From Lineus longissimus (lineage: Eukaryota > Nemertea > Pilidiophora > Heteronemertea > Lineidae), in assembly GCF_910592395.1 (NCBI RefSeq), contig NC_088309.1, positions 18,540,599 through 18,604,598 on the forward strand: a stretch of 64,000 bases of DNA, read 5' to 3'. Made by a program: the position numbers and the translations under genes. This document shows positions 14,901 to 56,700 of this stretch, in pieces. Position 1 is the stretch's first letter; each line of letters begins with the position of its first letter. The notes below the pieces were generated by a model. It saw only the letters and a list, made by a program, of their open reading frames with translations. It had not been told where the DNA came from and made no database searches.

Positions 14901-15902
14901 TGGTGACTGACACCATGTATCGAACTTGACGTACCGGGGTAAAACATAATGGTCGCTCCCCCATTTCGCTCGTTTCGTTTCGTTGCGCAAAGTCCAGTAA
15001 GCCTTTTTTCTCACCCTAAATGGAAAAGCATCTCTCAGCTCTCTCTCTCTCTCGTAAGAAGTCCCTAAAATATGGGAATAAACCCACAGTCGTTTCTGTA
15101 AACATTTCTTTGAAGAGAGATAAAGGCAAGTTCAGTCGCACGCTATCGGCGGCGTGCTATATATCGGGTAACGCAAAAAAGCCGTGGAAGGCAGTATACG
15201 TTTTTAATACTCAGTACAAAGAAAATGCAGGTTTTGTTGTTGATATATTCTTTGTCAACGAAAGATCAACAAAAGGAGACATTGTTATTTATATTTCAAT
15301 AATATCAGTCTACTAAAGCATACTTAATTCAACCTTCTACAATTTGGGAATTTGCATGCAGTATTACGGACAAACAAAGCGGGGATTTATTTTTGATATG
15401 ATTCGTATTTTCAAAACTAATCCCAAGAAAATATCACAGGACGGTTTAATCTAAGAACTTCATTGTGAACTAATAACGCTGGGCGGTTCTTGCTTGCGAA
15501 CACGTAGCAGTATAATGCTTGGCAGTATATACTTGGAATATCACGATAAAGCTATAGTCAATGTGTTGCATTGCTGGCAATAGGACTACTGGCTGTAGAC
15601 AATTTTATATCAACAATTCAACAAAGGGAAGTTGATAGACAGACCTACGCTACATGGGTAGATAGCAGGGACAATAGTTTGTTATATGAAAAAAAGATCC
15701 AATTCAATTGTTAACACGCATACAATGGATAATATCAAACACATTACTATCCAAATTATTGTTATTAGCTTGACATTACGACAAATCCGCTTTAATCTCG
15801 CTGAAAAGGGCGTTATACTGCGTTGCTTCTGTCGCTGACAGCAAATTAACGAAAAGTTCAAGGTCTCACCAACGATAATTGTTTAGACTTGTTTTGTCGC
15901 AG
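11911..15902. other. No coding exon recognised; transposon remnant inside
   Basis: The 5' exons of the EF-hand gene (initiator Met and N-terminal EF-hands) should lie here or further left, but I could not identify them. The only structured feature is the inverted-repeat element at 12779-13980. A short CT-rich tract sits near 15035-15053. Confidence 0.4.
12779..13980. mobile_element. Probable non-autonomous DNA transposon with nested inverted repeats
   Basis: Two layers of inverted repeats are visible. A hairpin at 12779-12893 pairs a TTCCATAGAGGTATAC... arm with ...GGGTATAGCTCTATGGAA, around an ATTGTTCGCGTATAGTAT core. A second pair, about 50 bp each, lies at 12902-12951 and 13908-13957 (GATAAAGTATGGAATTAGTG and its reverse complement), almost 1 kb apart. 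The 48-bp hairpin arm recurs at 44711-44758. In both places an AGGTGCCTTAG word follows the unit (13964 and 44760). No transposase is recognisable. Confidence 0.6.
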
Positions 15903-16135
15903 TTTTCAAATTACCCAAGATAAACGTATTGCAGGTCGAGGCCGATTTTCTCTGAATGAAATCACGGGGGCGCTCGTCGACAGAGGTTTCATCGCGGAGG
16001 AAGAGACAGCAGTCACGGAAGAAGAGCTACGGACTATGTTTGAAATGTTTGATAAAACTGGGGGAGGGACTATCGACAATAAAGACCTTAGAAGCCTCAT
16101 CCCTTGCTTGGGGGACCATATCACAGAAGACCAAA
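15903..16135 (+). CDS. EF-hand gene, exon with degenerate EF loop and EF3
   Basis: The acceptor is TTTTGTCGCAG before 15903 and the donor is A|GTAGGT after 16135 (phase 1). It contains the MFEMFDKTGGGTIDNKDLRS helix-loop-helix. An extra Glu/Ala-rich stretch between the first and second hands (AEEETAVTEEEL) is longer than the usual calmodulin spacing. Confidence 0.75.
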
Positions 16136-20647: not shown

Positions 20648-20766
20648 CTACTCTGTCAGTGTGTACTGCACGTAGTTTTCTTCTATTTCACACGAACACT
20701 TGTCGCCGTACTGACACTTGAACACTGTACCAGGCTTGTGGCATGTGCCGTTGCTGCCCGGACACG
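20648..20766 (-). CDS. Terminal exon: second half of Cys-rich C-terminal module
   Basis: The acceptor is ATTGCAG. It encodes CPGSNGTCHKPGTVFKCQYG, then DKCSCEIEENYVQYTLTE and TAG. Together with exon 21322-21450 it forms an eight-cysteine module. The closing cluster C-x(4)-C-x-C recalls the VWC/single-VWC end (usually CCP...C), but the fit is only tentative. Confidence 0.8.
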
Positions 20767-23700
20767 CTGCAATATAAGAGGAGTTGGTAAGTGTTACTTA
20801 ATGTACTTAAAATCAAGTGGTTTTAAAACTTTGTTTTTGTGGATTTGTAAAGCGCTGGATATGCCTGAACATAATGAGCTTGTACTGTAAATTATCGTCT
20901 GAAAACTCAGTGTAAAGAACTATAATTGCGCCCAATTTAGTTCCAGAGGTTACATTTGATAATTTATCTGCAGAAAACTCTTTTTAGTTTTTTCTGCTAA
21001 ATTCAGTTGTGCTCAATCAACTGCTGAAATCACTTATCGTTTAAAGTGAGCTGATCTGATCTCTGCATTATGGTTGCATTGGACCTCAAAAGGCCAATTA
21101 TACATGATTATGAGTAGTAACACAAATGAAAATGAAATAATAATCAAACACCACTGGCAATAATAAGGATGATTGTTGTGGTTACCTAGGCCTTTAGTGG
21201 AAATAAGGGTTAAGGGGTATCGAAAAGCTAAAAACAACTAGTCCGAAGAGCAATTTATGCTGGAGAGAGAGGCATAGACAGCTTAATATATTTTTTTCGA
21301 TATTCTTTCCAGTTTACTTACTTTGGGCAATGGTCTTGGGCCCTGATAACATGCACTTATATGTTGCACACTGTTCCTTATCTTCGTAGGTCTCGCCGAA
21401 TTTGAAGAAATGCTGGTCGTCGGCAGTCGAGCAGACAATCAAAAAGTTCGCTGCAAATAGAAGTTTGATTAAGTTAGAATAATGTTCACAATGTTTTTAA
21501 CCATCGTTTGACGCCCGTTTTTCTATCTTGACCACCAAGGTTTTTGCATTTCATCAAGATTACATGTTTACCCCGTCTACATGTGATTCAGGACGCCGTT
21601 TGTCATGATGGTGCTGATCCAAGTTGCTGGCGGCCTAAATGTTCTCAGAGGAGCGAAGGGCTTTTGAGTAATAACTTAAGTTAATAAATTCAATTTCAGC
21701 GCAGAAAATGTCGCGTGTGCGGAGATGTGTCGAGATGGTAAATATATAGTACATGTAGTAACTAGACAAAAAGTCAACGGTCTTGCATTGTCGTCTCAGC
21801 GTGATCATCCCAATCATCATTCAGCATTGTGTTTCTTCGTACGAATACTCATAAAAAAAATAGTTTTGAAAAACAGTTTACATTCTTTCATTCCAGGAGT
21901 ATTAGGTGATGATGACAAGCTATCTTCTTGTTGACTTGTCCAGGTTGACTAGAAACAAATGTCGGGCGTGTTCCCTTACCGTAGTTTTGATAACACACTT
22001 TTTCCCCCTTGTACTCGCCCTCTATGTAACCATCATCGCACTTGCCAGCTGGTACGACCGAAAAAAAACATGATCATAATATGAAATGAATGACAAAGAC
22101 AATGGGAATAAGACACTGATCGGAAAACATCTTGTTTAAATGAAACTCAAAGTTTGACTTTTTCTCTTTGACCGCTTGAAATAAGTGTCGCGGAATGCCT
22201 TGGTTACCCCACCAAAGAAGCGGAATGAATCATAGTATTTGCAATTCAAAGAACTGCATTCAGTGAATAGTAGTTTCATGTCTTGGCCTACATAACAGCT
22301 TCAATTCACTTTTTATCTTATGAAATTTGGTTGAGTACGAAGCACCATCTTTGCTAGTCCAAACCATGATACTTTTACAGGTATGTGTAGATATTAAATC
22401 GCAGTTCATCCAATTTCCTATAGTGACGTCATCGCAAGAAGATGAAAAACAATGTGAGCCATCTGAATAACATGGGGTTAACATTTCCTAATTGATAATT
22501 GCTAGTAGTTAACTTCCGCATCCATTTACATTTTGTTCTCCAATTCATGCCGTGAAATTACAGCACGGTTTGTTTCGTGTATTGTCAAGTTCAAAGAAAA
22601 ACTTACAGAATTTCCTAAAACACATTTTCTCTCCGTTGTAATAGCCTTCATCATAGTCAGCAGGACATTTCGTTTCTAAAAATAAAGATTGAATAATATA
22701 AGTAAGAATTGGGAATAAAAATAAATGGTACATGTAGACCCACCGGATAAAGTTTGGGTGCAATACAATGTATTGGTACATGTATCCTTTTATTTGGCAG
22801 CGCCAACAAGTCGACTTGATATCTGCCCCTAAACGTCCATGAGTATATTCCTGCATAATATCAAAAGCTATCGATCGTTTTTTAATTAAGTGTAATAAAG
22901 ACTACAATATCGTGATGGTTAGTATATACGTTGTAATAATATCATGACCGCACCAGTATGTGACGCACGCACCAGGGTCACCAAAGCTTAACTAAATACT
23001 AAATCGTTACTTTATTGCATTATTTTACGGCGAGGTCAAGATATGTTTTCCATAAAAGGGTTATTTGAGTTTTAACCAAGGATGAGAACAGAAAACCATT
23101 TCTTACCTACGCACAAGCCGTTCTTCAAATAATATCGGGGCGGACACGTGAATTCTGTAATATAATCAGATACATTATAAGCGTGTGTTATTACTGTAGA
23201 AAATGCAATAAGTGGCCACTGCGCTACCAGAATTTGAGCAACTAGAAACTGAACACAACGAAGAAACATCAGTTCATTTTATTGGGCTTGACCATCTACC
23301 GTAAGGATAAAAGAACTTTTTTTATTTTGCGGGTTGGCCACTTAATTTCCTTCATGCACATGTAGTAGTGCACCTTTATCAAATGACAGGGTTAAGTGAG
23401 GGCACCTTTTCTTCTTGTGTGATTGCGCATTCAATAAACAACAGGGTGGTGTAAGTGCATATTTCCTTCATGTGTTATTGCGCCTTCAATAAACAACAGG
23501 GTGGTGTGAGTGCATCTTTCATTCGTGTGTTATTACGCCTTCAATAAACAACAGGGTGGTGTAAGAGCATACTTCCTTCATGTGTTATTGCGCATTCAAT
23601 AAACAACATGGTGGTGTGAGTACATTTTTCATTTGTGTTTTATTGCGCCTTCATTAAACAACATGGTGGTGTAAATGCATATTTCCTTCATGTGTTATTG

Positions 23701-26700
23701 CGCCTTCAATAAACAACAGGGTGGTGTGAGTGCAACTTTTATCCGTGTGTTATTGCGCCTTCAATAAACAACAGGGTGGTGTGAGTGCATATTTCCTTCA
23801 TGTGTTATTGCGCCTTCAATAAACAACAGGGTGGTGTAAGTGCATATTTTCTTCATGTGTTATTGCGCATTCAATAAACAACAGGGTGGTGTGAGTGCAC
23901 CTTTCTTATGACATGGTTGTGTTCACATTTCCTTCATGTAGTGCACCTTTTCTTAGCATCCAGTAGCGCACCTTAATCTAGCGACATGTCGGCGTGAGAT
24001 TCTAATAGAAGGCCGCTTACCGGATTTCTCGTAGCAGACCAAGTGTCCATGGAAACCAGACCTTATGTAATCTGCTGGACATTGCCCTCCGACTGAAAAT
24101 GGACAAGTATAAATCAAACAAAAACGCTTCGTGTACCAAAATAGACAAAATCTTTAGATCTCCAGACTTTCTTTCTTTGGTTAATATCAGATTTTGTAAG
24201 AATCCATATTGCTCTTGGCAAAAGCAAGTCCTGGACCAATGTTTGTCTCGATGATCGAAAGGGCAGAACACCGGTTTGTCTCCAAAATCTGCTCAGAACA
24301 TGTTTTTCGCCGACGTCTAGGAAAGTTATCACCATAAGGACCACCATGGGATGACGCGATGGGCTGCCCATGGAGAAAGTGGGCCCGTAGCCTCTCTCAT
24401 CACTAATACGGTCATATGCTTTGAATATGTTTTAAAATAAGAAACGCAATCACTGATGGAATGCATAGGAAGGACTCGAAACAATACGTCACAAATTTCT
24501 TACAGGCATATAGCAGGCAGTATTGCTTGTTATGAATTTCAGCGGTCAGCGTATCTTTGGGACATCCAATCAAACCTGCACCACCTGCAAATGATAAAGA
24601 AAGTAAAGTTAATCTTATATCGGTTAGATCCGATTTTAGTTCTTTAGTGAAATACTGTATCAGTAAGCCGACTACGCGCCATCTTACACGAATCTAGTTT
24701 CGAATATGCCTGGAATTTTGGAATTTGGTAAGAGTTGCACTGCTTCTTATAAAGAATGGCACTGTTTAACAATAGACCAAATCAATATGTTTCGGTCTTT
24801 TTATACTTGACTCGACTCTGAATGTGTTTTTATATTAACAGGGGTAGTTTTGTTCACTTATCTATAGTTTGGTTCAAGATATTCTTCTAGAAACGGAATC
24901 ATCGTCGCATCTCTCGAGAACAGATTCTGCATGTATTCACTTTGTAGCGGGGAATTCTTAAAGAACAGAGCAACCTACCAGGTCCTGCCCCGACGTAACA
25001 GTGATCCTTCCCGCCGACGGATATTTCTTTGGAGCCCTTTGGACACTCCTCATTTTCAACTAAACGTAAATATAGATATAATCAACAGTTTTAAAGGTAA
25101 ATGGCGTAATGCTGTAAAAGGGTCAATTTCATGTCCATTTGTAATTTTCTGACAGTAATATTTTGAACTTGACATTTTATTTTGACCAATATTACCATGA
25201 AATGCTTGCGTTTTCCAGCAAAAAAGAATTCTTGGGATTTATATTTTGCAAATCAAGGTCACTCGTAAAATCTGTAAAACCATTTAGATAAATATTACAC
25301 AAAATATGAACCATAATTCGAATGTTTCACAGGAGTAATGTTTCCTTTGTTCTCATGCGACTGTGACATGACCCAGAAGTATTAAGGTAGCAGGAAAGGG
25401 TGGGCGTTGGTGGTTTCTAAGTGTGATGGGGGTATAGTGGTGTCTGTTGACTGTGCTTTAGAGAGACTAGGCATGATGCCAGTCTCCCTTAAAGCACAGT
25501 CAACAGACATGTGGTTTCGGTCTTTCATTGTAACAATGCGAAAATGTAAGCAATATTGGTTAGGTCCGTCATAACATAGAGTGATTCAACCACTCTCTTG
25601 ATTACAGCGGCCGCCTCAGCGCCACTACGCGGGGCTTAGTGGTATCAGGCTAAGTAGCTTCGCGCGATATGCATCATTCTGGGAAAACTCAATGTGGAAG
25701 TATGCTCATTAGCATAGTCTATTCTTAGCTCCAGTTCGAGGTAATCTTGCGCAGTGTTTCTTCGGCCAAGATACAAGTGGTGGAAAACGTCTAGGTCTAG
25801 TACAATGAACGCCTGGCTTGCGCCAGACTAATAAGTGAAGAAGGTCTGGCTGCGCGAGACTACTGTGATAAAAAAAGGCCATTGCAGAGACTCTGTGACG
25901 TAAGCATATACTTTTTACAATTAAAAATGCTCTCAAAAGACGATAAGGAATGATTATTTGTTAACATTTCCTGAACTATATACCTTCTAATTATCACTTC
26001 ACATAAATAGGTCGGCGTTAGGTCGCGTGCTTTTCTTTCCTCGTGACAATATACAGCAAAATAGTTACAACCCCATAATCGCGCAATAAGTCCATGATGA
26101 GATCACGGTGACCCGTTATAAATGTTTCGCCAGCTTAGATATTTTGCCGCTACGCGGTGCGTTGGGTCCTTGCATCGAGGAAGCGTGTGATAACATGACT
26201 GTGCCAAGACAAAAGTGGACGCTACGACCCGCAGCATATTCGAACTGGCGGCATTTCCACAGTCATGGAAAGATATTGGGTAATTCCTAATGACATCACT
26301 CTTTTAAAATGATACATGAGAGAATCTACCCAGCACTACTAGCTGCTCTTACCAAAGCTCTCAAAACAGAACGTGATTCCTCCGTATACCTCTTTCTCTG
26401 ATCCTTTCGGACACGCGATTGCTCCGAGTTTTATATGTGTGTCTATCGATAGAAAAAGAAAAATACCATTAGAATGTATTTTTATCAACATCACAGTTAC
26501 TCTATATAAAAAGACAAGGTTGATTGAACAAATATTACAGCTTCTGACAAAACTGAACTCAAAAAGGTTTGTTTATTTTTTAAGTCAGTTCCACCGATTT
26601 GGCTCAGCCCGTTACACACGAGGGACTTCTCACCAACTTAGTTGGAATTTTAATTCATAACAGGAATCCAGACCAGGTAACTGATACTTTGCCCGATTAG

Positions 26701-29700
26701 TTGGAGTTGCTGGCTGCACTACCGACTTGTTCTATTTCTCAACGACATCTTTTGTTTATATAAGGATTTTTTTGTTTATATAAGGAGTGTGGGGGAGAAA
26801 TTTCCCCGTGTGATTCAGTCAACAACATAGTTGGGCCATATTTTGACTCTTTATCTTAGCCTTGACCAAGGTTTTGGAATAACAGGAATCCAGACCAGGT
26901 AACTGATACTTTGCCCGATTAGTTGGAGTTGCTGGCTGCACTACCGACTTGTTCTATTTCTCAACGACATCTTTTGTTTATATAAGGATTTTTTTGTTTA
27001 TATAAGGAGTGTGGGGAGAAATTTCCCCGTGTGATTCAGTCAACAACATAGTTGGGCCATATTTTGACTCTTTATCTTAGCCTTGACCAAGGTTTTGGCC
27101 TAAATATAGTGCAGGACCTAAATATTGCTGGGATTATGTCTTTCGTGTGAGTGGGTGAACGACTCCCAACTTCCAGTCACCTGTGCACCTGTTCTTAATT
27201 TTAAAACCAACTAAGTTGATGAGAAGGGCCTATCTTACATTTAACCGACACATAGGTAGGTGGCCTACAAATCGACCGCATGAGTAGGACGGGTGCTTTC
27301 TTTGCCTTCTCACACTCTTTAAAATTTATTAGTAAATGAACATATCTGGCATGTCTGGTAGTTGCTATTGCACCAACTGTGAAATTGATAAAAATAGCAG
27401 TGATACTAACCATTAAGTACCATTTAAATGGTTAAGAATTACTATTTCAAGAGTTAAAACAAATAATTATTACAGTCGGTGCAATACGAACTAGATAGTA
27501 GTAAAAAATTACTATCAAATAGTTATTTTTACCAATCAATTTTAGTAACGAGATGGTTGTGTCAAACACTAGGCCATCGGGATCACGGTCCACTTCCAGC
27601 ACATTATGGTGTACGTTAGGTTACAAAGGACATTGACTTTTTTGTTTCTTCGTCTTCCAACTGGCACGCACTCACCCTTTGCATAGTCAATGACGCAGTA
27701 CTTTTCATCATCGAATTCCATCTCGGTGGTACCTTCCTCGCATTTGCCAGTAAAAACTGTAATGAACAATATAGCGACGTTTGATTATTTACAGAATCAT
27801 GCGTTAAAGTAACTTGACATTGCATTTACGGTGAAAACACAATAAATGTGCGGCAAGAAAATCTCTGAAATGCATATACCACTCACTTCTCAATACACTG
27901 CTAATAAGCAGAACACGTTAACTTGATGTCGTCATCTGGCAATTTTTCTACGTCAACCTAAATGAACATGAAAACGACAACACTAAAACTACGTGAAATA
28001 GACATATAACGTATAGTTTAATCAACTTACGAATAACACAGAAAGGAATTCCTCCATAGACCTTGCCATCACTTCCCGCAGGGCATCCAATGGATGGCAC
28101 TTAAAAAAGAGAATATAACAGCTGATTACATTCAGTTGCATCCAAAGAAGTAACTGAGAAGTAACAGAAAACCACAGAAGGATATTTGCCCTTCAAACAA
28201 AATTTGTGAAAAAAACACAGAGGCTCCTTATGCTGTGGCGGTAAAAGGTGATTGTGATTGTGTAGATTTGGCTGAAGAAGCTGGTGGTGTAGAAATGTGA
28301 CGAGTGGTAAAAAGCGTATAGTGCCCTAGTGGACCGGAGTTGAATGCGAGTTCAACAGAGTTGATTGCATTAGCCGGTTGGCCAGTGCGGTAGATGCGCA
28401 AGTCACGCAGGCTCCTGTCCGCCGACACGACATACATTGGTCCACGGCTTAGTCACCTTCCACGAACGTGAAGCCACGGTCTTTAGCCCGGAAGGCCTGG
28501 GTCTGGAACTCTGGACTTGTCGTTTGTTAGGCGGTCACGATAACCATTAACCAATCGCGAAACAAAAAACATATTTGAATACCTTTTCCAGGATTCATGA
28601 TACAGATTAACTCTCCTCTGTACTGCAATTGATTGAGACCATGAGAACAACCACCCCTTCCTGAAACATCAAGTTAAAGGCAACTTTATGAAGCTGTTTA
28701 TTTGTGTGTTTAGTACATGAAAACAAAAATTCCCTGGCGAAAGGTTGGCTTGAAATAACCCAAAAAGTACCTCGACCCACCATTTTGAGCACTTTCTGAA
28801 ATCTTCTCGTGTCCGTTTTTTTGTGATCAATTAATTTATTGTGATGATTGAATTCAATGCAAAATTACAAATACTGCTTTTGAAGTCTGAACGGTAATTT
28901 GAAACATTAAAAGTATTTTCTATTATTGATTATATCATACACGTATATTATATGCCGAGCATCCACAGAGAAAGCTGGGCGTAGCTTACTTTTTCGTCTG
29001 GGGTAGAGGGGAAAAGCCTCTCGGGTGGGGGCAAATTGACCCTTTTTTGAACTTGTCGGCCAAAATCATTGGTCAGACTACGTGTGTTGGTTGCTCCTGG
29101 ACCTCCCTGCCCCCCCCCCCTTGCTAGCTACGCCAATTGAAATGTACGACGTGGCTATCGCGTTTTCTTTGAAAGAGTTTTACCTGCTGGCAAGACACAG
29201 TACACCTGTAGTCCGACTTTCATTTTTTCCATTGAAGGATCTGGACAATAAATTCCAGCTGGTAGTAGGTCTGGAAAATGATTATACACCTATTATTCAG
29301 ATCATGCACCATCTCCAAAATAATTGTGATACCTTTTTTTGGGGTAAATACAACATTAAATTGTAAGAAAAATTGGAAGGTGGGATCAGCATTTTCTTTA
29401 AAAAAATTGCGAAACATGGATTATGAGGGCGATGCAATTTGAAAAGGTTAGCATCGTGCTAATTGCAGTGGATATTAGACAGGGGGTAATCACGCTAATT
29501 GCTGTGGATATTAGACATGTAAAGTTGGGGTGATTAGGTTAATTGCCATAGACGGACTATAAGCAAGAACCGACACATTTTTTTCTCTGTTAGAAATCAA
29601 AATATCATGGGTTGTAAGTACTTACCTTTAACGCACATTTTCTGGCCTGCTATAGAGTAAATTTTGAATCCTGACGGACACTTGCCATTCACTGAAATGA

Positions 29701-32700
29701 GCCGATATAAATTGATATCAAACGGAAAATCTGTGAAAAAACCGTATAATTTCCAATTGCATTAAACAAAGCTATTTAGTGAAGAGACTTGAGACCTCTT
29801 TGGATTTCTTGCTCCCTCTTCTACCTGAACCCTTTTTTCCAATGATTTGACCCCTTTCTGAGACTTGATTCAGTGGCCTGTGATACACTGTACATGTACA
29901 TGCATGACTGGCATTTCCAAATAAAGGATGACAATTATCGAAAACCCCGCAATAATGGTATATGATCAGCAACTAAAATATTAGAACTAACATAACAGTT
30001 TAAAATAGATGACTTTGCCCGATAGCCAGCTTGGAGGTTCATGCGAATTCAAATCACCAAATTTAAAAACTTAAATGATTTTCGGAGAATATAGATAATA
30101 TTCCCTCATCACGCATGATAAGCACAGAATTATGAAACTGCGCCATGACAAACAGGCATTACCTGGAGCTGGAGCACACACGTCTATTCCAAAGAATGAG
30201 AATTCCGAGATGCCCGGCTTGCATGCTGTAACATAGAAATAACGGGTGTTTTAGTAAGGGGAACTTAAGGTTATGATTGGTTGAAATCATTCTGGTTTGA
30301 CTTCTTGGTAACATATTCCTGGGGGGGGGGGGGGGGGTCAAGGAAATTGCATATTTATACCTTTTCACTCTTACACAAAGTACAAATGTAGCAATGGGAG
30401 TGAGGCTTACATTCTGAACAATGGATGACCTTCTGATGCCTAGCTCTGAACTAAAACAACTGAATGAATTTATTTAAGAAAATCAGCAGATCAGTGCATA
30501 ACGAAGTAGTGGTAAAGGGAGAGAGATGCTTACGTGATTGATAGACGCAGAAGACATCATTTCCGAATACCATTTTCGTCATTCCCTTTGGACAATGGGC
30601 TTGCATTTGTTGAGGTACTGAAATATTTCAATTAAGAATTTCTATGGTAACATTTACCTTTACTCCTGAAATTGTTTATGAAAAAAATAATAAGATAAAC
30701 ACTGTTGTTAGATATAGATGTGTTTGCTTTAACATGAGACGTTTTATCTTGTAGTCGTCAGATTTTGTGAGACGATGAAATGAGCGTAACCTGCTAATCG
30801 TTAAACAAGTTAAAATTTCACTGAAGAAGTACCAGCAGCAAGCAAAATTGACATAGTGTGTCAGCGTTATCAAGTCGCTTGGGGAGCGCCTGTACAATAG
30901 ACCTGCCTAAACTAACTTAAGCCCGTCGACATGATATTTTCCACCACGCTACGCGTACTTAATTGAACTAGCTTGGCTAGATTCTACAAAATTGACCAGC
31001 AAAATCAGCATGATCTATTCTTCCAAATCATCTCGGTAGTATCCTAAATCGTTCCATATATATAGGACATTTTTACCTGGTCCAGGAGCCTTGATACATC
31101 CAGATTTGCCGCCCGGGAAGGTGAATGACACGGTCTTGAGCGGGCAGTTACCATCTTTTTCTGCATCAGAAAGTTCAGCATCACAGTCAGTGGAATAATA
31201 CATGTAGCAGAAAATGAGTACGGGGATACATGTACGCTTAAAGGGGTACACCGTCCGTAATTACTGGTTATCCAGGAAAATAGAAAATGCAGTTGTACAC
31301 AATGCATAGTGCAATTATCATGCATACAACTTTGCTGAAAACTTGGTGTGCTTATATGATATTTGTAAGTCTGTCTACACATTGAAAGTGTTAACATTTA
31401 TATTCATTCAAGTATTTACACAGCTGGAAGTTTTTAAATTCAATTACAAATAATTTCAGATTTCTATCGAACGGCACAGGCCTGGAGACCAAAGCAATAC
31501 ATACATTACAGTTCCTATAAAATGATAACAAAGCCAAAAACGATGGATAAGTCTTGTTCAACTATTGCTGATGATGGTTTCTAAAGAATCATCATCTGTA
31601 TTAGTTTTCGATCCTTGGCTTTGGCTCCGAATCTAAAACAATTAGATGCGATTATTTTGCACTTCAGTTCAGTTGAACATGAAAGAGCGGCCCGAATGTA
31701 GCAAATGGCGTAGTGACAGTTACTCTCAATGGGGAGATATATACAATTTACATGGCCCCTCTACAAACACAGGCAGCTTTGATGTACATGTATTAAGATG
31801 GGGTATTCGAAAAAGCTGGATCACTGGACTGCTTGAATTACTGGATTGTGACTCATGGATCACCACCGCCTGGACGGATTGCCGAATTCTCAAATCCTTA
31901 ACGATTCCAACCATGTGCTTCAAGTGCACGCACTGGCACTGCCAACATGGATTTTCAAGTCTCCGATTCTTCAGCAGATAAATCGCCGGGCTATAGCTAG
32001 TACCAGAGGTTCTACAAAGATGGTTTCTATTGCAGCTGAAGAACTCCTTAGTCAATGTGTGAATGATTATGTACTCGAGTCATGGCATTCGATTAGACAA
32101 TTATGATAATGACAGCACGAGGCAGCGTATTGAAACATGCACTCTAGGCCTACCGGTAGGCTACACTACAGTACAGCATGTGCCAGCTACAGTCCAGGCG
32201 GTGGTGACCCATGAGTCACAATCCGGTGAATCCAGCACTCCAGTGATAAGGCATTTTCGAATAAGCATTTGCTGGTGAAAGAGGCCATAGTACTTACCTG
32301 TTGGACTTATACAGAATGCTCTATTGCCGAACATGCGCTCTGTGGTTCCATGCTTGCATACTGTTTTAATGGGACTTGGGTTCGGTCCTAAAGGAGAGGA
32401 AAAGGGAGTTGCTTATTGCATCACATATAAAAACAAAAGTTGCCTTTTGCACTAATTGAGCTTGATAAGATATCAAAAAGAAAGCCATTGACGTCATGCC
32501 TCTGAATGATGGGAATGCTTGCCCCGTTCGATCAGTGAGTGCGTGTTTTACGAGATTTGAAATGATCGATGACCGGCCCAGAATCTTATTAGCACATATG
32601 CTGGAAATGCAAATGATACCAACTCGATTAAATTTGGTTATTCCCTTGTGACCTCTTTCCTTTTGCGAGGCAACTTTTTTTCTTCGAAAGATAAGTATGC

Positions 32701-35700
32701 AAATCATAGTTCGTCAAAAATGTCTTCACCTACCAGGTCCATGTGGAACTGTCAAACAGAATACCATTCCGTCCCACTTAATGGTCGTTTGGCCGGCAGC
32801 GCACGTTCTACCTGTAACTGTAACGAAATATACTATGCCATTCTGTTATGCTGATAAAGAAAAATAAAGCTGTAATTATTCAAAAGTTTCTCCGATTCAA
32901 GACCGGTTCTGAATATTTATTTCGAGCTCGATATCATACATGGTTGTCAATGCTTTTCAAGTGACTTTCCGATGGTCATAACGTTATGTTCCGATATGGC
33001 CTTTTGAATAGATTTCGTAAGGAAAAATCAACTGCTCTTAGATTGGCGGAACAAGAGTATATAACAAATGCACTTTTACACTATTGTCGGTACACTTTCC
33101 TTTCAATTATATAACGGTCAGTAGATATTCGGCATAACTGCACTTGCCTAAGCCTGCTGCCTTGGCATCGTTGGGACGACTGATCCACTTACCATACCGG
33201 CCTGGCCTGCCCCTGGGCAGACTTAGATTCAAGAGATAAATATTTTCGACTGACTTGCTTAAATGACAACAGAGTATTCAACTGGAGTTTAATTTTAGGC
33301 ACAAACTGGAGTATGTATATATACACTTAATGACTTACCCTTTGTCTCAATACAGACTTCGTGTCTACGTATCTTCTCCTTCTTCTGGCCTGCAGGACAA
33401 GCTTGGTTTGGTACTGTAACAAAGATGTGACGACATCTCGAGTTGCATTCATATCATTATATGCGAATTGCTACTTCATTAATAAAATTCAAGCACCAAC
33501 TCTGTTTTTAAAAATGCGATAAAAGCACGCACTACTAGGTAAGACCTCACACTAGCTAATTCTGCGGGGCCATATTTACAGGGTGATAATATTTAAAAGT
33601 TGAAAATCGGAAGAGCAGAATACGTAGTCGCTCCATCTTCTTGAAGAAAAAATCGTTAGTCAACTTGACCCATATCAAACGAAGCGATCTGTAGCTGCGC
33701 TTACACCACGAAATATTGGTGGACCAATTGCACTTACACCACCACATTGCCGCGACAAATTGGTTCGGCAATCCATTGCCGATACAAATTGCCGAGCGAA
33801 TTTGTCCCACCAAGCTTGATGGTCCAAATTCGCCCGGCTTGTTAAAAGCTCGGCTTTGTCGTGGTGTACGCGCAAATGGATCGGCAATTAGCTAGTTTGA
33901 TGGTTCGGCTCCAGGCGGCGCTTTCGAAATGGCGCTTTCTGCGCATGCAATTTATTGTTTGCGTGCCATCTGTAGCCGGATTTTATAACTAGCTGCAGCG
34001 CTGGTGTAAACGCTTGGTGGATTTTCGATGGTGCGGCATTGGTTCCCGAACCAAGATTGGTGGTCCATTTTCAGGTGGTGTAAGTGCGGCTAATAGCAGA
34101 AAGCAGAAAGCGCCATTTCGAAAGCGCCGCCTGGAGCCGAACCATCTAACTAGCTAATTGCCGATCCATTTGCGCTTACACCACGACAAAGCCGAACTTT
34201 TAACAAGCCGGGCGAATTTGGACCATCAAGCTTGGTGGGACAAATTCGCTCGGCAATTTGTATCGGCAATGGATTGCCGAACCAATTTGTCGCGGCAATG
34301 TGGTGGTGTAAGTGCAATTGGTCCACCAATATTTCGTGGTGTAAGCGCAACTAATGACTCGAATGCTCCAATATCCAGAAAAGATTATTTTTGACGAGCT
34401 GGCTAATCATTTATTGTCTTCCCGATCTTGATTTGCGCGATATAGGTATCAACAAAATTGGACTGAAATTAGCTTCTGATTTTCATAACTGCTCCCAATG
34501 TTTAATTGACTTCTGGTTAAAATTTTCTTGTTAGGTTTGATAGGAACAACAAGAAATGGGTTTAAACCTGTTGAATGAAAATGCATTACCTGCAGCATTG
34601 AAACAGAAAGTGTGACCATTCCATACCAATCGGATCTTTCCTGCTGGGCAAGATCCTGGCTTCGGCCTTGCCAAAGGCAAACAGTATGCCCTGTAATTCC
34701 ATACGATTCTCCAGTTTCCTTTGGGGCATTTTCCAGCAACTGAAAGCAAGAGAAGTGTATTCTTAACCCTAATCACCCAGTGCCAGATCCATTTAGGAAA
34801 CAGATGGCGAGAGCATAATGCATGCAGTCTTGTGAAAATGTTGGCTTTATTAACAGACTGAAGACAACTGAGAAACTGAGAAAAACCTCATTAACTGACT
34901 GACAAAAATTGCATGAAACCTCAGAATGTGTGAACTGAAAGGATTGCAAACTGGGAACCACCACTCTGTACTCTCGGTCACAGTCAAGATGTTCTGAGCC
35001 ACCTTGAGAATAGCATAGGGCCTATACGTATCTAAGCGCGAGTCTTACAAAAAAAAATCAAAAAACATAAAAAACCTTTTCTGCAGTTCCTCCTGCAGCT
35101 ATGAAAGTTGCTCGTGCTGACAACGATGTACAAGATGTTTCACAAAACATGTGCCACGGAAAGTACATCATGCTCAGTTTGTGCCACTGTGTATCATATT
35201 TAAAGACATGCAATCCTGGAAATCGAACATCTAAAATACCCGACACCATTATCCTGGTGATAATACTACACTATTTTCTGTTCTATCATACATGCTCTAA
35301 TACCGCTTACCTGGCGGCTTGATACATGTATCGCGGTTACGCATTTTGACCCTTTCTGCACCTTTCGGACATGGCTTGGCGGGACCTGCAAGTAAATGCA
35401 ACCTTTAATGACTCCTGCATGTCTGGAAGCGAATTCGCGTTACCGATCCATTTGGCACAATGCAACATGCGTTTGAGTAACCTGGAGGCTTAGGTTGGAA
35501 ATCTTTGAAGGGGTGCAACACCATTTGGGCACCACAAAATACTTATACATGAGACAACACAACATTTCGCACACATGCATTTCGACTCAAAGCCTGAATA
35601 AAATCCAAACAAGAATAAAAGGTCTTTTATTAAAACTAAGGTAAAAACAACTGTCGGCGGAATGAGACAAAATGCTTTTGCTCTGCTCGGCCTTCAAACT

Positions 35701-47700: not shown

Positions 47701-50700
47701 GTCTGCTCATTAGCATATCTCGCGCACTGCTCCTTCTTGTCAAACATCGTAGTGAAATCGTAATGGAAAACGTCTGGCTTTGCGCCAGACGTTGAGACTA
47801 ATAAGTGAAGAACTAATAGGTAAAGAACTTCTACTTGCGCGAGACTGCTCTGATAAAATTATCATTGCAGAGACTACGGTGACGTACACTTATATTTTTT
47901 ACAATCAAAAATGCCCTCAAAAGACGACATGGAGTGATTATTTTATTGATATTTCCTACTATATACCTTCCAATTATCACTTTATACAAATAGATCGGCG
48001 TTAGGTCGCATGCTTTTCTTTCCTGGTGACACTATAAAGCAAAATAGTTGCAACCCCGTAAATGCGCTATAAGTCCAATAATAAGTGACGGTGACCCGTT
48101 ATAAATGTTTCGCCAGCTTCGCTTTTTTGCCGCTACGCGGCGCGTTGGGCCCTTGCGTCAAGATAAGAAAATAAATCTTGATGCTCTTTTTTCGTCACGG
48201 TAATTGAAGAGGTTAAAAAGTGCGCCATTTTGCACAAAATGGCGCCGTTGTTGTCAGCGGTTTACACATGTAACATGCAATGACATGTTTTCGCGAGGAG
48301 ATGTAATCTCTAAGCCTATTTTTTGACTGTCTGAAACGAGCCGTCTCCGAAATCAAATTGGTTTCAAAACGGCCTCCAAATTCACTTGAGATTTTAACTA
48401 ATTTCCGTCTATCGATTTGGCTTTAAAATATGTTTTTCATCAACCGATAAGGGTACTTGTTAACATGGTAGTGTTTTAAGAGCAATTCATGTTATGGTTT
48501 AAGCGCATGCACTGTGTTTATTACGTACTCGATACGAATACGTTTTTTCTGAGTAATGGCCGCTGATGAGAGAGTTAAGACGGTAAAAGAAAGCTTCTTT
48601 GAAGTATTTTTTTAGTTTTATCGTCTTAAGTTTTAAGACTAGTGGTCGTGGATGTGAGGGGTGAGGAGTGAGGGTTGAGGGTTGAGCAGTACTAAACAGA
48701 AATAATCTGACCACAAACGACTAACTCAACCTGAAATTTTTTAACTAAAATACCAAATAAGATCAATAGATGGCACTATACAAACATCACCAGATATGTT
48801 GCATGTACAATACATTATAAACAATGTCGTAAAATAAGAAGCAACAGTGCTCCGTGCATAACAAGAACAACAGAAGTAATTGATACAAAAGCTAGAATGA
48901 GAAGCAACACTTTTTATATAAGCTAACTGAATGAGCAGCATTTTGATTACTTACGACTTGTGTATTTGTAGCAAACCTTTTTACCCCCGAAAATGGCTTC
49001 GACTGAACCTTTTGGACATGGGTAAGCTGCAAAAGGAATTGAAGCCACATGTAAAACCGAAGGCTGGGTATATTAGGCAAGCCGCTCGCCGAACAGGCAT
49101 CATTTTTTGCCCTGTTTGGGGAACCGCTTGCCGATCAGCAGTGAAAATCATCCCAGTTTGGTAAGCCGGTGTAAAATGAATGGACGTCCTAGGAATGCAG
49201 GACCCCATACAATAGCTGTGTATTGTCAACGAATGTTTGTATGGTTTGGTTAGCTACAGCTACATAATCTTAAACAAAGAAACTCGGCGACTCTATTCAT
49301 TTTAACAAAAGGACCGGACTTAGATTCCGGGGGACTTGCATTTCTTTTACACCGGGCTTGCGAAGTAGTCTCTTCCGAAAAGGAATTGATGAGTATTGCA
49401 ACACTTAGCAGATCATGGTAAAGGAGACACAGCAGTAATGTACATGTACAAACAAATGGCATACTGCATGCCAGTGCCCTGCATTCTAACTAAAAAGCTA
49501 GAACTCTGACGCGGTGGTTATTAAAATGTATCAGTTTTGCTTTACAACGCGATCAGATATGGTAGACCCTCCTTATACCGTGTTGGAGGGGTATAGATAT
49601 GCGCCGCCTACAATTCACCCCTTAAAATGAATTATAAGTATGTTCTCTAATGTTTCCTCTGTGTCTTCATTTCCTTCCAAGGTAAGTAGTTTGTCTGGTT
49701 ATCACTTTCTCGTACGGGAAAAACTGAGAAAAGGAAACCCGCCAAATATTGAGGGGAAACACTCAGAAGGGGACACTCAAAACGTTGCACCGAAGTAAAA
49801 ATAATGTTAAATTTCGATTAAAATCCTCTTATCTTCCGATACTGAATCGCCGGCGGGAGGGGGGTCAACCGGAGAGATTACTAACCTGCATTCTTGATGC
49901 AAACATGGGCAAATCCGATCTTGCCCACTGTAGTACCGGCTGGACATGACTGAGCTGAAAGTGTAATAAGGAAATAAAATTTAGACATTTACACTGTAAT
50001 ATAAAGCACTTGAAGACATATTAGGTACGTCACATTCAGAAAATAATCGTCGGTATTATAAATCTTATTAGCATAACGAAGTAATTTTAATTGGAAGTTA
50101 AATATCTTGGAGCAGCGCCACCAATTGGCAACCCAAATACAATATTTCTGATCCAGTATGTGGTTTTCATTTGGGCCAAATACCCCCCCTTTCTTCTATA
50201 TCTTAAAAATTACAATCAGAATCAATTTAATAACCTATATGTACATCAAAAATTGGCAACCTGATAGCCGCGCAATGTAAACCAATGCTGGTTGCACGTA
50301 ATGGACTTAATCCACCTGCTTCCCGACACGTTCCCCCGGCCGTGAGTTTTTCTCTTAGTACGGTCGCAGAGATACAAAGATTTTAGTCCAGTAGCCCATA
50401 GTTTCCGCCAAGTTCATGCATCATTCCCATACGAGTCCCGTATTGTATGGGAAAGATGAGGCGGGAACCTGTATGGAGAAGGTGGATCATATCCATTAGA
50501 TGGGTTATGGGTGTAATCATATGATGGGCAGCTCAGTGAGAAATCTACAATACTAACCTCGGATATGTTTGCACCGATTTTTCTCTCTGACATAGTGGTC
50601 TGGACATTTGACAACTGAAAAGACGCATATACATTATTCGAAAAAATTAAAGATTGAATTCAGAATTGACAGACACTCCTAGAAAGCATACCATGCAGTT

Positions 50701-53700
50701 ATATTAGCAATAACAAATTTCTGTTGCTTACAAAGTTATTTTGACACATTCACTTACAGTTGCATTTTCTTTCTTCCGCAGCCCTTGTGTAGCCAATGGG
50801 ACATCCTAAAATCAAGACAGGATAATTTATAATTTGTAATTTGTAATTTATTTGGCCAACATAATAATTAAAGTACATGTATGAGATTTTTAACAGTGGA
50901 AATAACGGCCAGGGACACAGCCAAGATCAACAGTTAGATCGCTTACGGCTGTGCCCATGCTGAAATAAAATAGATTTAAGAGAAATGACAAACCAACATA
51001 AAAAGTACCTCTGGGTAAGAACCTGTATGGAACAGCTAGATACACAAAAGGGTTAGCATGAAATTTACTCGAATTGTAATGTTTTTTATATTAAAAATCA
51101 GGAATGAGCACATACATAAACTCGTTGCATTCCTATGATATCGATAAAATACAATATGAGAAAGAAAACAGTTGGACCAAAAGAGAACAAGATTCTGTAA
51201 AATATTTGATTTCCTAAGAAAAGTCAGTAAATTTGGTCAAGTTTAAATCCAAATTAAGTTGAAAGTTTCGGAGAATTCTCAGTTTTGAGTAGTTCAACCG
51301 TACTTGGCATCAACGCTCGATATCAACAATTGATTGCGGGAAGAGATGAACCGGGATATTGTTATCTTATGAAAAATATGGCCATAATCTAAGGACTTTA
51401 ACTCACCATTCATTTTATGTTACTTACCTCGTCCTTTGTAGCAATATTTCTTTCCATAAATTTTAGCCAGTATAGTTCCCTCAGGACAGGCCGCAGCTGG
51501 AATAGAATAGCCAGCAAGATAACAGTATAACAATATACAAAACAAAGTAAACAATATCCTACCAAACCTTCAGCATTTCATGCCAGTTTAGGTATATCGA
51601 CCCCCATACAGATGTTTCGTGGGGGTCGATGTCATCAAGATTTGCCCTGATAACCGTTTGATAAGACAGTAGAACAATCGAAATTTAGCCCAGGTCCGAG
51701 CAAGCTTTGTCTAAAGACAATAGACCGTGTATTGCGCTATGCCTGAATTATTTAAACTGTAAGGTATGGGGGAAAACCGTGAGGAACTTATTTAAGTGAA
51801 AATATACTTACGATGAGGCCTGTAGCATACCCTTTTCTCATCGTGGAAGTATTCCACTGAACCACGAGGACAGCCACCACCTTGAAAAAGAGAAACGCGA
51901 TCAAATCTTTCTTGAAAAATTGATTAATTATCCGTTCTGGACACTTAAATTGGCTGCTACAAAAAGATTGATGAATGAAAGTTGTGTTTGGCAGAATGGT
52001 CCTCTACTTACTTGTTGGGACTTGGCAAACCCGTTTACCATTGACTGTAGCCACCTTCGACCCGGCTGGACAATTAGGTTCTAAAACAGAAAAAACAACA
52101 CAATCAAACGATCATCAAAGGAGCTTAGTTGAAACCTTATAATGTGACGCCTAATTTTTCGTGATAGCTGCATTTTTACTTTACCCCGAAATGCTGTCAC
52201 GAATTTAAGCTTTTTGGATTTGGCCAACGGCCTACGTAGCTATTTCATGCCTGGTTACAGCGGTTAACATATCGCCATGTGTAAATATGTCATTTTCTCA
52301 CTGCATATTTTGTAAACTTTGAATTGATTGTATAGTGGCAGCAACATCCGAGGTCAAAATACAGTGTTTGAATTCTTACCATGAGGCTTCGCGCAGACCT
52401 TTTTACCATTGAGTGTAATCTCGTTGTACCCATGAGGACAATTTTTGCCTGAAAATAGAAAGCGTGTACATTTGATTGATAATATGTCAAAGACTTCTCA
52501 ATTGAATTCTTATGTTTACAAGCTCGCACGTAATCAATTAGTAAAATAAATCACTAATACTTGGACAAATTCATAATTGTGAATCTCTTTGAAATAAATC
52601 CTTTAGTTTTACCTTGGTTCGGCCAACATGATATGACCTCGTTGTTGACAACGAGGGCAATGTAGCCTCCTGGACATGCGCGATCTGAAAGAAAATATTC
52701 TAATTCATTTTTGTATTGGTTATCGTCAATTGGTGGATCGTTGCTAGTATTCTGAAAAAAATCTCCAATCTTTCAAGCATGAAGCAAGCCATGTCAATCT
52801 TTTAAACTCAGTGACGAACGTTTACTGCGTCATTTTGATACCAGTAGGTCAAAAGAGGAAACGGAGCTTCCACACAAATTAATTCCATGAACACAGTTTC
52901 AAACACACATGTAATTTGTAAGTGCATACAGAAAATGCCAATCAATGATGCCGATCTTGATTTGAATGCGTCAACCTTTGTACTTAAAAATTGATTCAGG
53001 AAAAGTGACTCACATGTGCATTTTCCTTTAGTGAATATGAATCCAACTGGGCATTCTGAAAAAAATTAAGATAGCGTTTCATTAATTTTTAAATTAATCA
53101 AAAATTTTTTTAGATACAACGTTATACGATTCAAATTAATCAAAAATGTTTTTAGATACAACGTTATACGATTTAAATCAATCAAAAATGTTTTTAGATA
53201 CAACGTTATACGATTCAGCAACACATATGTATTAAACAGTCGGAGGATATCATTGTGTGGCCCAATAATGTTGCGGCAAGAAAATTTCAAGATGCAACCG
53301 ATTCGTGGTATTTTAAGAACTCTATGTATGATTCTTTAACCTTAATTGGCACTGTTACATTGGTTTAAAATGATGAAAGCAACATTAAGGTTTTAGGATC
53401 GATAGCCTTTGCCACGCCGATTTTATTTTTGTAAAAGCCCCCTTTTGACAGAATATGTTATCTCGTGCCAGATAAGTTGTTGAAGTCCTGCTACCATTTT
53501 CTAAGCCATTTTCTTCATATTTGTGACCAATCATGCATCTACCTACTTCTCTTTTTGCAAGACATCCTTGTTCCGTCTTGAACTTGTTCGTATCCTTCAG
53601 GACAAGCCGCAACTGAAGAAAAAAACAAATTCCATTCAACGAAAATACGTTCATCCATGATCGTTAAAGATTTTTGCTTTTGTGAGGTTTGTTACAATGG

Positions 53701-56700
53701 CTTTAGTGAATCGAAAGTCCTTCCTGAAAGTCGTCAGGAACCAATATGACACAGGGACTCTCTCAATGAGGTCGAAATTTGCAATAACTTGGATAACATA
53801 GATTCTCAGAAGATTTCTAGTAAAGCTGGCATGCATGCGGCCAAGTTAGAAAACACAAACGTAAATGAGAATATGTTCAATCTTTTCTAGAATCGTGTAT
53901 GCACTTGTGTTTCCTTTTTACAAACTTGTACTACACTAGGTTCGAATCTTTATATAACATGCTTTCACTGCTCAGTTTTCAAGACTTGCAACCTCGTGTT
54001 GTACTTTACTCGGTAACAATACTGTGGGAGAATCAATGAGTATCAATTGATAATTTCAAAGCATTTCTAATGTACTTACATTCACACTTTAAGTTACGCA
54101 CCCTGAAGCCAATTGGGCAGTCTGAAAAACAAAATATCACGCAATAAAAAATTGTGCAAAAAACTTAATGCGGAGGTCAATGTAGGTCTTCTACGTTTCA
54201 GCTAACTCTGTCAAGCCTACCAGGTGCATTGGTTTAAAATTTTGGTAGGGTGACACACGGCAAACCCAGGTCGCAAATTCGAATAAGATTCATCAGATTC
54301 TTCAGATTCTTCTAGTTAAGATCTTATTTCGTGTACATGTGTTTGTGCAATCGCTATAAAATCTTGAAAAAGTCTTAGAATCTTTTAAGAATCTTGTAAC
54401 GAATATACACGCACATGAACACGAAACCCAATAAGATCTTAACTAAAAAAAATAAGGAAGTGACTACTTGGCAAGCCCGGCTTACCAAACAGCGACTTTT
54501 TCTTGTCCTGAATGGAGAGCCGAACTCATTAATATTAAAGTAAAGTCTCCAGCTCGCCAAACAGGGTAGATTTTTTACCTGTTTGGCAAGCCCGGCTGGC
54601 CGAACAGGGTGGCTTTTTAGTGCTGTTTGGCAAGCGGCTCTCCAAACAGGACAAAAAAAGATGCCTGTTCGGCGAGCGGCTTGCCAAATAGACCCGGCCT
54701 AAAAATAAAATCTTATACGGTTTTTCGACATGTAAGGTTGTTGCAGGACAACTATAAAGGCTGAACGACACAATCCAAGCTAGGGAAACTTTGTGTAGTT
54801 ATCCTGAAAATGACGTGTGCGCTTACACTAAGTACGGTTAATGAATGTAATAGCTACAGTTATACACTAAGTTTTCCTACACACGCATTGCATCCGCATT
54901 GGTCATTTACGGAAGTAGTTCCTTCGTCGGGGGAAACATCAATGTACTATGTGAGAAGATAGGGACCGATAGGGACAACCTTATTAGAAGGGGTAACAAA
55001 GTTGGTGATATCGAAACGAATGACATAGGCAGCGTGATCAGGGATCTTACACTGATGAGAGACAGGGGTGACTATCTTTGATAGAGATGAGCTGTCAGAT
55101 GCTATTACGCATCTAGCATGCGAATGATAAGTTGACCTTTGCCCCCCCCCCCGCGGCAGAGGATCCATGAGAATTTTTCTTTCATAAATAGACTTTGACA
55201 CATGTATTTTGTTTTTACGTTCTTGTCTTGTTCAATGCACCTTTTCTTGTAAGCGCACAATGCACAATACTGTAAAATGTACAAGAGTACGATAAATAAA
55301 CTATACGCAGAAAATCGTCAAATCGGACAGACTGTAAGCCTTTGTTTGACAAACTCTATAAGATGCAATTATCAAAGGTACCGGTGGACTTATCGCCTGT
55401 CCTTACCGCATGTCTTAGCCAAAACGCTCTTAATTTTGCTGGAAAGATCACTGAACGAGCTTGCTCGAATGACATTCTCCTTTCCATTTGCCATTAGCTC
55501 CAACTCTTGTTCATTGATACGATGTCCGATGCCAACAGCGATGATTCGTTGAGTAAGTGCCCTCAGATCATCAGATACCTTGCCAACACTTTTATGGTCA
55601 GTTGCCTTTCCGTCGGTGAGCACTATGACCATGCTCTTAACGCCATTGCCTCGTCGGCCGTGGGTGCTGGTAAGAGCTTGGACTCTGGTCAAATAAAGTG
55701 CCTTTGCTGTGTAGGTAGCGCCAGGGACATGTCTGAAAGATGACAAAACCTTTCATTTTATTTCAATTGTCGTTGTGGCTAATATTTTGATAAAACAAGT
55801 CATAGGTATTTCGAACTCCTTTCGCGGGGAGATGTCGACTTGGAAGAATAGAGACCGATGATATGTATGGGTGTTGGTCCCAAGGTAAATTTGACGCATT
55901 TAATTCAACCAGTAGCCTAACCTCTGATGATCCAACAAGCGAGGTATTCAGTCTGGTCTACCCCGCACCTTGTGGAATGCGTCCTAAGGTAACTGTGGTC
56001 TTTTTTCTTGTTAGCTACCACGAACTGGGGTATCTAACATTAGAACATAATGTTTTATTAGAACAACACTCACGGTATGTCCACGATGGCTTTCTGGAGT
56101 GTAGCAAAGTTCTTGTACTGGTTCAGCCTGATCACCTCCGTTGCACCTGTTGAGTATCTCACGACACCAACCTGAACATGATTGGGCCCTATCTTTCCGA
56201 GAGATGCCACAAGATTAGCCATGAATGCCTTCATCTTCTTGAAGTCAGTGACGCCAGCACTGCTGTCGACCACGAATACGATATCGATCTTTTTCAAACA
56301 TGGCGGGCCTAGAAAAAGAAGAAATGTGTTTAATCAAAAGAATGACATTTTGGTACCGTATGGTTATGAAACGATTTGAAGAAAATTTTGGGTTTGCCTT
56401 CTTATTAATACAGGAAGAGTTCCTCTTAGATGAGAACTCGTGTTTTGGTCAATACTCGATTGCGTGAAGAGGCATGCATAATGGAATGCAACAAGAAGGT
56501 AAATTTTGATTAACTTGGTGAATATAATACATTGGGTAGTAAAGGTCCTTGGCTATCATGCATCCATTAAGTGTTGTCCAGTTTGTCATGTATAAAGAGA
56601 GGAGATTGAGATCAGGGACGTATCACGGATCCGTATACGGATACGGATAGAAATGTACGCATAATTCGTACTCTTTCTATAGTTTTATCCGTACGCATCC

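Follow-up and report, generated by a model that had tools for sequence, protein, structure and literature searches.

The systems with which the present locus can be compared are small disulfide modules and proteins built from VWD, C8 and TIL domains. Follistatin-type modules have four cysteines with C1-C3 and C2-C4 pairing, the TIL domain has ten cysteines and five bridges, and the EGF-like domain has six cysteines in EGF order. The modules of the chicken cysteine-rich eggshell membrane protein (CREMP), which resemble the follistatin-N (FOLN) type, are given in part of PMC3068167 as C-x4-C-x5-C-x8-C-x6. According to parts of PMC8621496, the VWD-C8-TIL combination is common in adhesive proteins of limpet, sea star, sea urchin and flatworm, and the authors question whether this combination is itself adhesive to surfaces. 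Here we describe an array of two-cysteine units encoded by small exons of the ribbon worm Lineus longissimus, in a stretch of 64,000 nucleotides referred to below as the window (assembly GCF_910592395.1, contig NC_088309.1, positions 18,540,599 to 18,604,598, forward strand). On balance we favour the view that the array forms the C-terminal rod of a single very large secreted protein, that its units are FOLN/CREMP-like C2-C4 hairpins without the C1-C3 cysteines, and that it serves as a spacer in mucus, glue or matrix.

An array of small two-cysteine exons

The array occupies the minus strand from 54121 to 21980 and consists of 46 small exons with AG/GT borders and phase 1 at both ends, which encode 47 two-cysteine units and, when joined, 1115 residues (Table 1). 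An earlier note, made from the sequence alone, had placed it at 21980..54121, exactly the outer exon borders found here, and had counted at least 47 exons and 48 copies. The array is as described and the count is slightly lower: 45 of the 46 exons carry one unit each and exon 34739-34590 carries two, hence 47 units, and a search for a 48th by means of splice profiles that had been trained on the array gave none. Borders were set exon by exon from splice sites in searches that imposed phase 1/1; without this demand the best-scoring sites were still in phase 1/1 in 31 of 38 passing matches. Two cysteines are present in 44 exons, four in the two-unit exon and three in exon 42532-42467, which has the only unit with a third cysteine. 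All 95 cysteines of the joined array fall inside units and none in the 46 linkers, which are 4–17 residues long (median 8). Proline, which the note had put at the end of each linker, is present in 30 of them.

The number of residues between the two cysteines (the gap) is 14 in 37 units, 10 in six, 15 in three and 12 in one, so that the predominance of gap 14 reported earlier stands with 37 of 47 units in place of 38 of 48. Counting from the first cysteine, position 2 is proline in 38 of the 47 units and position 4 glycine in 40. The 37 gap-14 units follow the consensus C-P-x-G-T-x-x-[IV]-x-[aromatic or aliphatic]-[G,N]-G-[K,R,H]-x-[VFY]-C-[hydrophobic]. Among them hydrophobic residues (VILMFYWA) occupy positions 8, 10, 15 and 17 in 73, 95, 92 and 89% of cases and positions 7, 9, 13 and 14 in 22, 30, 16 and 27%; the resulting alternation (0.635) lies far above the highest value of 5000 within-unit permutations (0.216). 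Position 12 is glycine in 21 of the 37, and glycine or asparagine stands at position 11 or 12 in 33. Cysteines apart, the cores share a mean pairwise identity of 23% (highest 64%). The features read from the letters alone, namely hydrophobic positions 8, 10 and 15, a mostly glycine position 12 and low identity elsewhere, thus all hold. Neighbouring gap-14 units resemble each other slightly more than units in random order (0.27 against 0.23, a value reached in 10 of 2000 permutations); as to clear block duplication, no search was made beyond this likeness of neighbours.

The pattern is not one that base composition readily produces. The minus strand of the array region contains 26 occurrences of CPxGx(11)C, its plus strand none and the minus strand of the remaining window none, while 200 dinucleotide shuffles gave a mean of 0.035 and a maximum of 1. 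For the looser CxxGx(11)C the figures are 36 observed against a shuffle mean of 0.835 and a maximum of 5. The joined array is strongly basic (isoelectric point 9.29, net charge +91) and contains neither N-glycosylation sites nor Arg-Gly-Asp.

Two of its introns hold tandem repeats: a 55-base repeat of 9.2 copies (86% matches, 23396-23899) and a 212-base duplication (86% matches, 36064-36489).

Predicted hairpins and their possible kin

The hydrophobic alternation and the glycine or asparagine at positions 11-12 point to a hairpin that is greasy on one face and turns at these positions. AlphaFold2 predicts such a fold. In a model of the two-unit exon 34739-34590 based on the 46-exon alignment, the second unit has strands at 5-10 and 13-18 and a turn at 11-12, in a block with a predicted local distance difference test (pLDDT) of 78-80, and the first unit forms a shorter hairpin (pLDDT about 60); the predicted template modelling score of 0.30 means that this model speaks to the hairpins and not to packing between units. 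The same strands were predicted for exon 38458-38366 from its single sequence, with pLDDT 85-89 over residues 1-20. Together with an alignment-wide alternation beyond that of all permutations, these two models support a chain of beta-hairpins with a Gly/Asn turn, as the earlier note had proposed with a Gly turn; strands and turn fall where it had expected them. Gap lengths agree with this picture: 44 of the 47 units have gap 14, 12 or 10, in even steps (the three others have gap 15), and the seven shorter units lack 2 or 4 residues, as expected of a hairpin from which whole cross-strand pairs have been removed. A register test by charge pairs gave eight pairs in the favoured register, a thin count.

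We infer a Cys-Cys bridge within each unit, since the gap is nearly constant while the cysteine-free linkers vary from 4 to 17 residues, and since one unit corresponds to one exon in 45 of 46 cases.

Searches against known families returned little. Pfam-A was run on the joined array and on 39 of the 46 exons (the other seven being shorter than 20 residues) and NCBIfam on the same 39; no model reached its cut-off, with HMMER filters dropping most matches above E about 0.1. FOLN gave no match at E up to 10, and TIL (PF01826) none, with either the joined array or the 39 exons. Lustrin_cystein (PF14625) matched the joined array at E 0.067, with 14 bits against a gathering threshold of 27; Ephrin_rec_like/GCC2_GCC3 (E 0.056, below gathering) and cEGF (E 0.094) each matched one of the 39 exons. 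Against the PDB, the first 454 array residues gave no match by sequence, a profile of the 37 gap-14 cores none, and a profile of the 46 exons two rows only (E 0.29 and 0.81). Foldseek and VIA-align comparisons of the unit models found no significant fold. For the two-unit model all 49 Foldseek rows had E 1.7 or worse, many of them HER3, HER4, EGFR, NELL2, Notch and uromodulin chains; for the single-unit model the top TM-score among 30 rows, 0.58, belonged to FSTL3 (3b4v_D, E 8.2), followed by unrelated rows at 0.55 and 0.54. A literature search by motif words found nothing on this repeat, a negative that is only as good as the search terms. Within 250 kb upstream, profile and pattern searches revealed no tandem paralogue of the array; one partial profile row (7 of 18 columns, E 0.0035) and one plus-strand pattern match were taken as chance. 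The statement that no named domain has this pattern is therefore correct at Pfam-A and NCBIfam cut-offs and overlooked that the units resemble CREMP modules and the TIL hairpin.

This resemblance emerged from direct profile comparisons, scored against 60 column shuffles that kept the cysteines. The gap-14 units aligned with CREMP modules at 20.9 over 18 columns (shuffle maximum 10.3) and with FOLN and CREMP combined at 17.2 (maximum 12.6 in 60 shuffles, 11.5 in 200). GCC2/ephrin-type modules followed at 15.3 over 11 columns (maximum 12.4); the EGF hairpin (9.9, maximum 12.0) stayed within the shuffle range. The gap-10 units behaved differently, with 16.2 over 7 columns for GCC2 (maximum 10.7), 13.1 for EGF (maximum 12.0) and 9.5 for CREMP (maximum 13.4). 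Removal of the C1-C3 pair from a CREMP module would leave C-x(14)-C with CPxG and a Gly turn, which is the repeat seen here. A C2-C4-like gap of 14 or 15 occurs in 40 of the 47 units, and CPxG and the Gly turn are shared features as well. Cysteines corresponding to C1 and C3 are absent in all 47: the C3 place holds a cysteine in none, and the 46 linkers have none to offer. With two cysteines per unit, and three in one, the ten of TIL and the six of EGF are equally far away. Weighing against CREMP kinship is that the match reaches only E 0.81 PDB-wide with the 46-exon profile, so that this kinship is no more than suggestive. The closest match found is nevertheless the CREMP C2-C4 hairpin, taken without the C1-C3 cysteines.

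Several other readings were considered. The array may represent a new repeat class, a one-bridge hairpin encoded by one tiny exon each, with 47 units stacked by their hydrophobic stripe into a cationic rod; we hold this broader claim only tentatively. The unit would then have been reduced from the two-bridge hairpin of FOLN, CREMP and disulfide-directed beta-hairpin (DDH) modules, or would be a primitive form of it. About as doubtful is an independent origin of the unit, in which a Cys-Pro-x-Gly turn and a Gly turn staple a hairpin so easily that the arrangement arose many times. In the PDB alignments, rows of CREMP, ephrin-receptor-like, TIL and EGF type do repeatedly show CxxG hairpins, and neither array profile has a significant PDB-wide match, but the agreement with CREMP runs column by column beyond the cysteine spacing.

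Somewhat less probable is that the units are spread copies of the C-terminal hairpin of the TIL domain of the same gene, the gap-14 units being lengthened derivatives and the likeness to CREMP convergent. Relics of this origin would be seen in the order of the exons (TIL, VWA, array), in the gap of 10 and in the aromatic residue that follows CPxG in the first units. The TIL exon does end in CKSGYVLSGTKC, with gap 10, as in the short units; these (numbers 1, 3, 10, 13, 16 and 45) match TIL hairpins at 16.0 over 13 columns, with shuffles up to 11.1, and Phe or Tyr directly follows CPxx in units 1-5 and 44-47. The 37 gap-14 units, however, reach only 8.4 with TIL, a value within the range of the shuffles (maximum 12.3). 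The gap-10 units may derive from this TIL hairpin instead; a CREMP/FOLN and a TIL origin are thus both candidate explanations.

We consider it improbable that disulfides instead join the closing cysteine of one unit to the opening cysteine of the next, in a covalent ladder without hairpin staples: linkers of four residues at 5 of 46 places would suit it, but the constancy of the gap relative to the linkers and the exons with exactly two cysteines argue against it. Least probable is a precursor that releases small disulfide peptides by the dozen, with a hormone, antimicrobial or venom function, for although the units are small, basic, repeated and would hold one disulfide, and parts of PMC9132205 describe venom and toxic epidermal secretions in ribbon worms, we rejected this reading because dibasic sites are rare (an adjacent basic pair in only 5 of 46 linkers), and VWD, C8, TIL and VWA domains adjoin the array on the same strand.

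The probable host protein and neighbouring features

Upstream of the array the minus strand encodes PAN-like stretches followed by VWD, C8, TIL and VWA domains, and downstream a tentative SVWC/VWC-like end (Table 1), all of which, like the gap-10 unit type, had escaped the earlier note. VWD, C8 and TIL lie in this order on one strand. The domain order and shared strand suggest one gene, in which the array would be the C-terminal rod of a VWD-C8-TIL-VWA protein with PAN-like stretches before it and the SVWC-like end after it. The protein is probably very large and secreted; the candidates for a signal peptide are a few hydrophobic starts, none of them settled.

Twenty-eight PAN-like stretches follow one another on the minus strand upstream of VWD (61036-103290 in extended window coordinates), three inside the window and 25 upstream, reaching 39 kb beyond it; a PAN array of 28 is unusually long. 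Thirteen are phase-1/1 exons and 15 open-frame matches only. Of 13 stretches compared with Pfam, six reach the PAN_1 gathering threshold, three match below it and four have no match at E 0.01. Our own PAN profile was built from 11 of the 28 and includes exon 62949..63170, which scores E 2.2e-31 against it. The count does not include two weak PAN-like rows still farther upstream (E 4.4e-5 and 1.1e-4), nor a row at window 1453 (E 0.016).

The last part of VWD covers profile positions 125-156 with 22.4 bits against a cut-off of 22.9. The closest PDB relative of the TIL exon is FCGBP (E 1.5e-6), with mucin-2 at E 0.044. The SVWC match rests on the joined 81 residues of the two last exons (E 0.015, 16 bits against a cut-off of 27). 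The VWD of the window (59320-59691) begins GDPHY and so contains GDPH, the motif at which some mucins and FCGBP cleave themselves.

Table 1. Features of the array and its host protein in the window (VWD, C8 and VWA coordinates are those of open frames, not exon borders; E-values refer to the Pfam models named)
Feature	Position	Strand	Remarks
PAN-like exon	62949..63170	-	phase 1/1; PAN_4 E 3.5e-4, PAN_1 E 7.7e-4, both below gathering
PAN-like exon	62153..62359	-	PAN_1 E 1.9e-5, above gathering
PAN-like exon	61036..61260	-	PAN_1 E 7.6e-4, below gathering
VWD, first part (QGDPHYYTFD)	59320..59691	-	open frame; PF00094 E 3.8e-14
VWD, last part (GICGNCNG)	58009..58188	-	open frame; PF00094 E 1.6e-4
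C8	57246..57599	-	open frame; PF08742 E 2.7e-13
TIL exon	56849..57031	-	splice sites; PF01826 E 4.6e-11
VWA, first part	56073..56333	-	open frame; PF00092 E 1.5e-16
VWA, second part	55393..55752	-	open frame; PF00092 E 2.8e-14
Unit 1	54080..54121	-	gap 10
Unit 2	53547..53612	-	gap 14
Unit 3	53014..53055	-	gap 10
Unit 4	52613..52684	-	gap 15
Unit 5	52380..52448	-	gap 14
Unit 6	52012..52080	-	gap 14
Unit 7	51812..51880	-	gap 14
Unit 8	51428..51496	-	gap 14
Unit 9	50758..50805	-	gap 12
Unit 10	50558..50614	-	gap 10
Unit 11	49886..49954	-	gap 14
Unit 12	48955..49026	-	gap 14
Unit 13	43042..43095	-	gap 10
Unit 14	42467..42532	-	gap 14; sole extra Cys of array
Unit 15	42296..42361	-	gap 14
Unit 16	42020..42076	-	gap 10
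Unit 17	41423..41497	-	gap 14
Unit 18	40765..40839	-	gap 14
Unit 19	40224..40298	-	gap 14
Unit 20	39859..39936	-	gap 14
Unit 21	39257..39331	-	gap 14
Unit 22	38366..38458	-	gap 14; AlphaFold2 model of unit alone
Unit 23	38027..38101	-	gap 14
Unit 24	37363..37437	-	gap 14
Unit 25	36665..36745	-	gap 14
Unit 26	35820..35900	-	gap 14
Unit 27	35311..35385	-	gap 14
Units 28 and 29, one exon	34590..34739	-	gap 14 each; AlphaFold2 model
Unit 30	33339..33413	-	gap 14
Unit 31	32734..32811	-	gap 14
Unit 32	32298..32387	-	gap 14
Unit 33	31077..31160	-	gap 15
Unit 34	30534..30617	-	gap 14
Unit 35	30163..30225	-	gap 14
Unit 36	29626..29691	-	gap 14
Unit 37	29184..29258	-	gap 15
Unit 38	28583..28660	-	gap 14; weak donor site
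Unit 39	28031..28099	-	gap 14
Unit 40	27676..27756	-	gap 14
Unit 41	26353..26442	-	gap 14
Unit 42	24979..25059	-	gap 14
Unit 43	24504..24584	-	gap 14
Unit 44	24021..24092	-	gap 14
Unit 45	23107..23154	-	gap 10
Unit 46	22607..22675	-	gap 14
Unit 47, last	21980..22048	-	gap 14
SVWC/VWC-like C-terminal exon, tentative	21322..21450	-	splice sites
Terminal exon, Cys-rich	20648..20766	-	acceptor; stop codon at end

Elsewhere in the window there are a minus-strand open frame for a rhodopsin-type G-protein-coupled receptor (6699-7232, 7tm_1 E 2e-23), a plus-strand open frame with weak EF-hand matches (15850-16326, best E 2e-4, below cut-off) and a minus-strand tRNA-Lys (TTT; 11837-11911). On another contig of the assembly (C1:1719330-1760503) an 11-base word returns at intervals of mostly 641 or 766 bases over at least 41 kb, a long satellite array with two period lengths.

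Significance and comparison with known systems

In the model that we favour, a rod of FOLN/CREMP-like hairpins, nearly every exon would encode one 12- to 17-residue unit. Its Cys-Pro-x-Gly would curl back into a first strand, a two-residue Gly/Asn turn would lead to the second, and the closing cysteine would bridge to the first one. Because short cysteine-free linkers join the units, the array would be a protease-resistant, strongly basic and semi-flexible spacer, and adjacent units or chains can probably stack by way of the hydrophobic stripe. Assembly and the binding of partners would fall to the PAN, VWD-C8-TIL and VWA modules, which makes a role in worm mucus, glue or other extracellular matrix the most likely one; there the secreted cationic spacer could bind polyanions.

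The array offers 47 natural variants of one hairpin, from which the tolerance of turn and strand residues could be learnt. Should this model be right, a single disulfide and about 16 residues would suffice for an extracellular block that is copied one exon at a time, whereas follistatin-N, CREMP and DDH modules have two bridges. Protein design would gain a minimal hairpin brick with a hydrophobic stripe, and research on ribbon-worm mucus or glue a concrete candidate protein. If the array is indeed a new repeat class, the one-bridge hairpin would to our knowledge be the smallest disulfide module used in long tandem, and an exon with a 16-residue core would have proved able to multiply as a stand-alone structural unit.

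Among known systems, CREMP (PDB 9pgb and, in part, PMC3068167) shares with the array the tandem small modules, the C2-C4 gap of 14, a CPKGT start, the Gly turn and a short period, 27 residues in its a module; its modules have four cysteines and two bridges each and are highly conserved copies, unlike the two cysteines and low identity found here. FOLN shares the Cys-x2-G-x2 start and the turn before the last cysteine (FSTL3 row), whereas FSTL3 modules score at or near shuffle level against the units. The TIL C-terminal hairpin has its gap of 10 and CxxG[YF] start in common with the six short units, over 13 columns, and fails to match the 37 long ones. GCC2_GCC3 and Ephrin_rec_like modules share CPxGT...G...C and a partial profile match but have more cysteines per module and a gap of 11-13 (11 PDB rows). 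The likeness in fold to ErbB-receptor and EGF-repeat modules is insignificant, and no sequence relation to them was found. The DDH peptide KASH2 of Asterias rubens, as described in part of PMC11891777, has a hairpin with a C2-C4 bridge and appears at Foldseek ranks 4 and 44 for the two-unit model, not significantly; DDH peptides there are free and have four cysteines and two bridges, and a part of PMC4942781 gives the DDH pairing as C1-C4 and C2-C3. At the level of the whole protein, FCGBP, mucin-2 and flatworm ap1/ap2 share the order VWD, C8, TIL with the host. The flatworm proteins have C-lectin, EGF, LDL or TSP-1 domains and other repeats, as far as parts of their description go, while the ribbon-worm protein is set apart from VWD-C8-TIL proteins by its PAN array, its VWA domain and its predicted hairpin rod.

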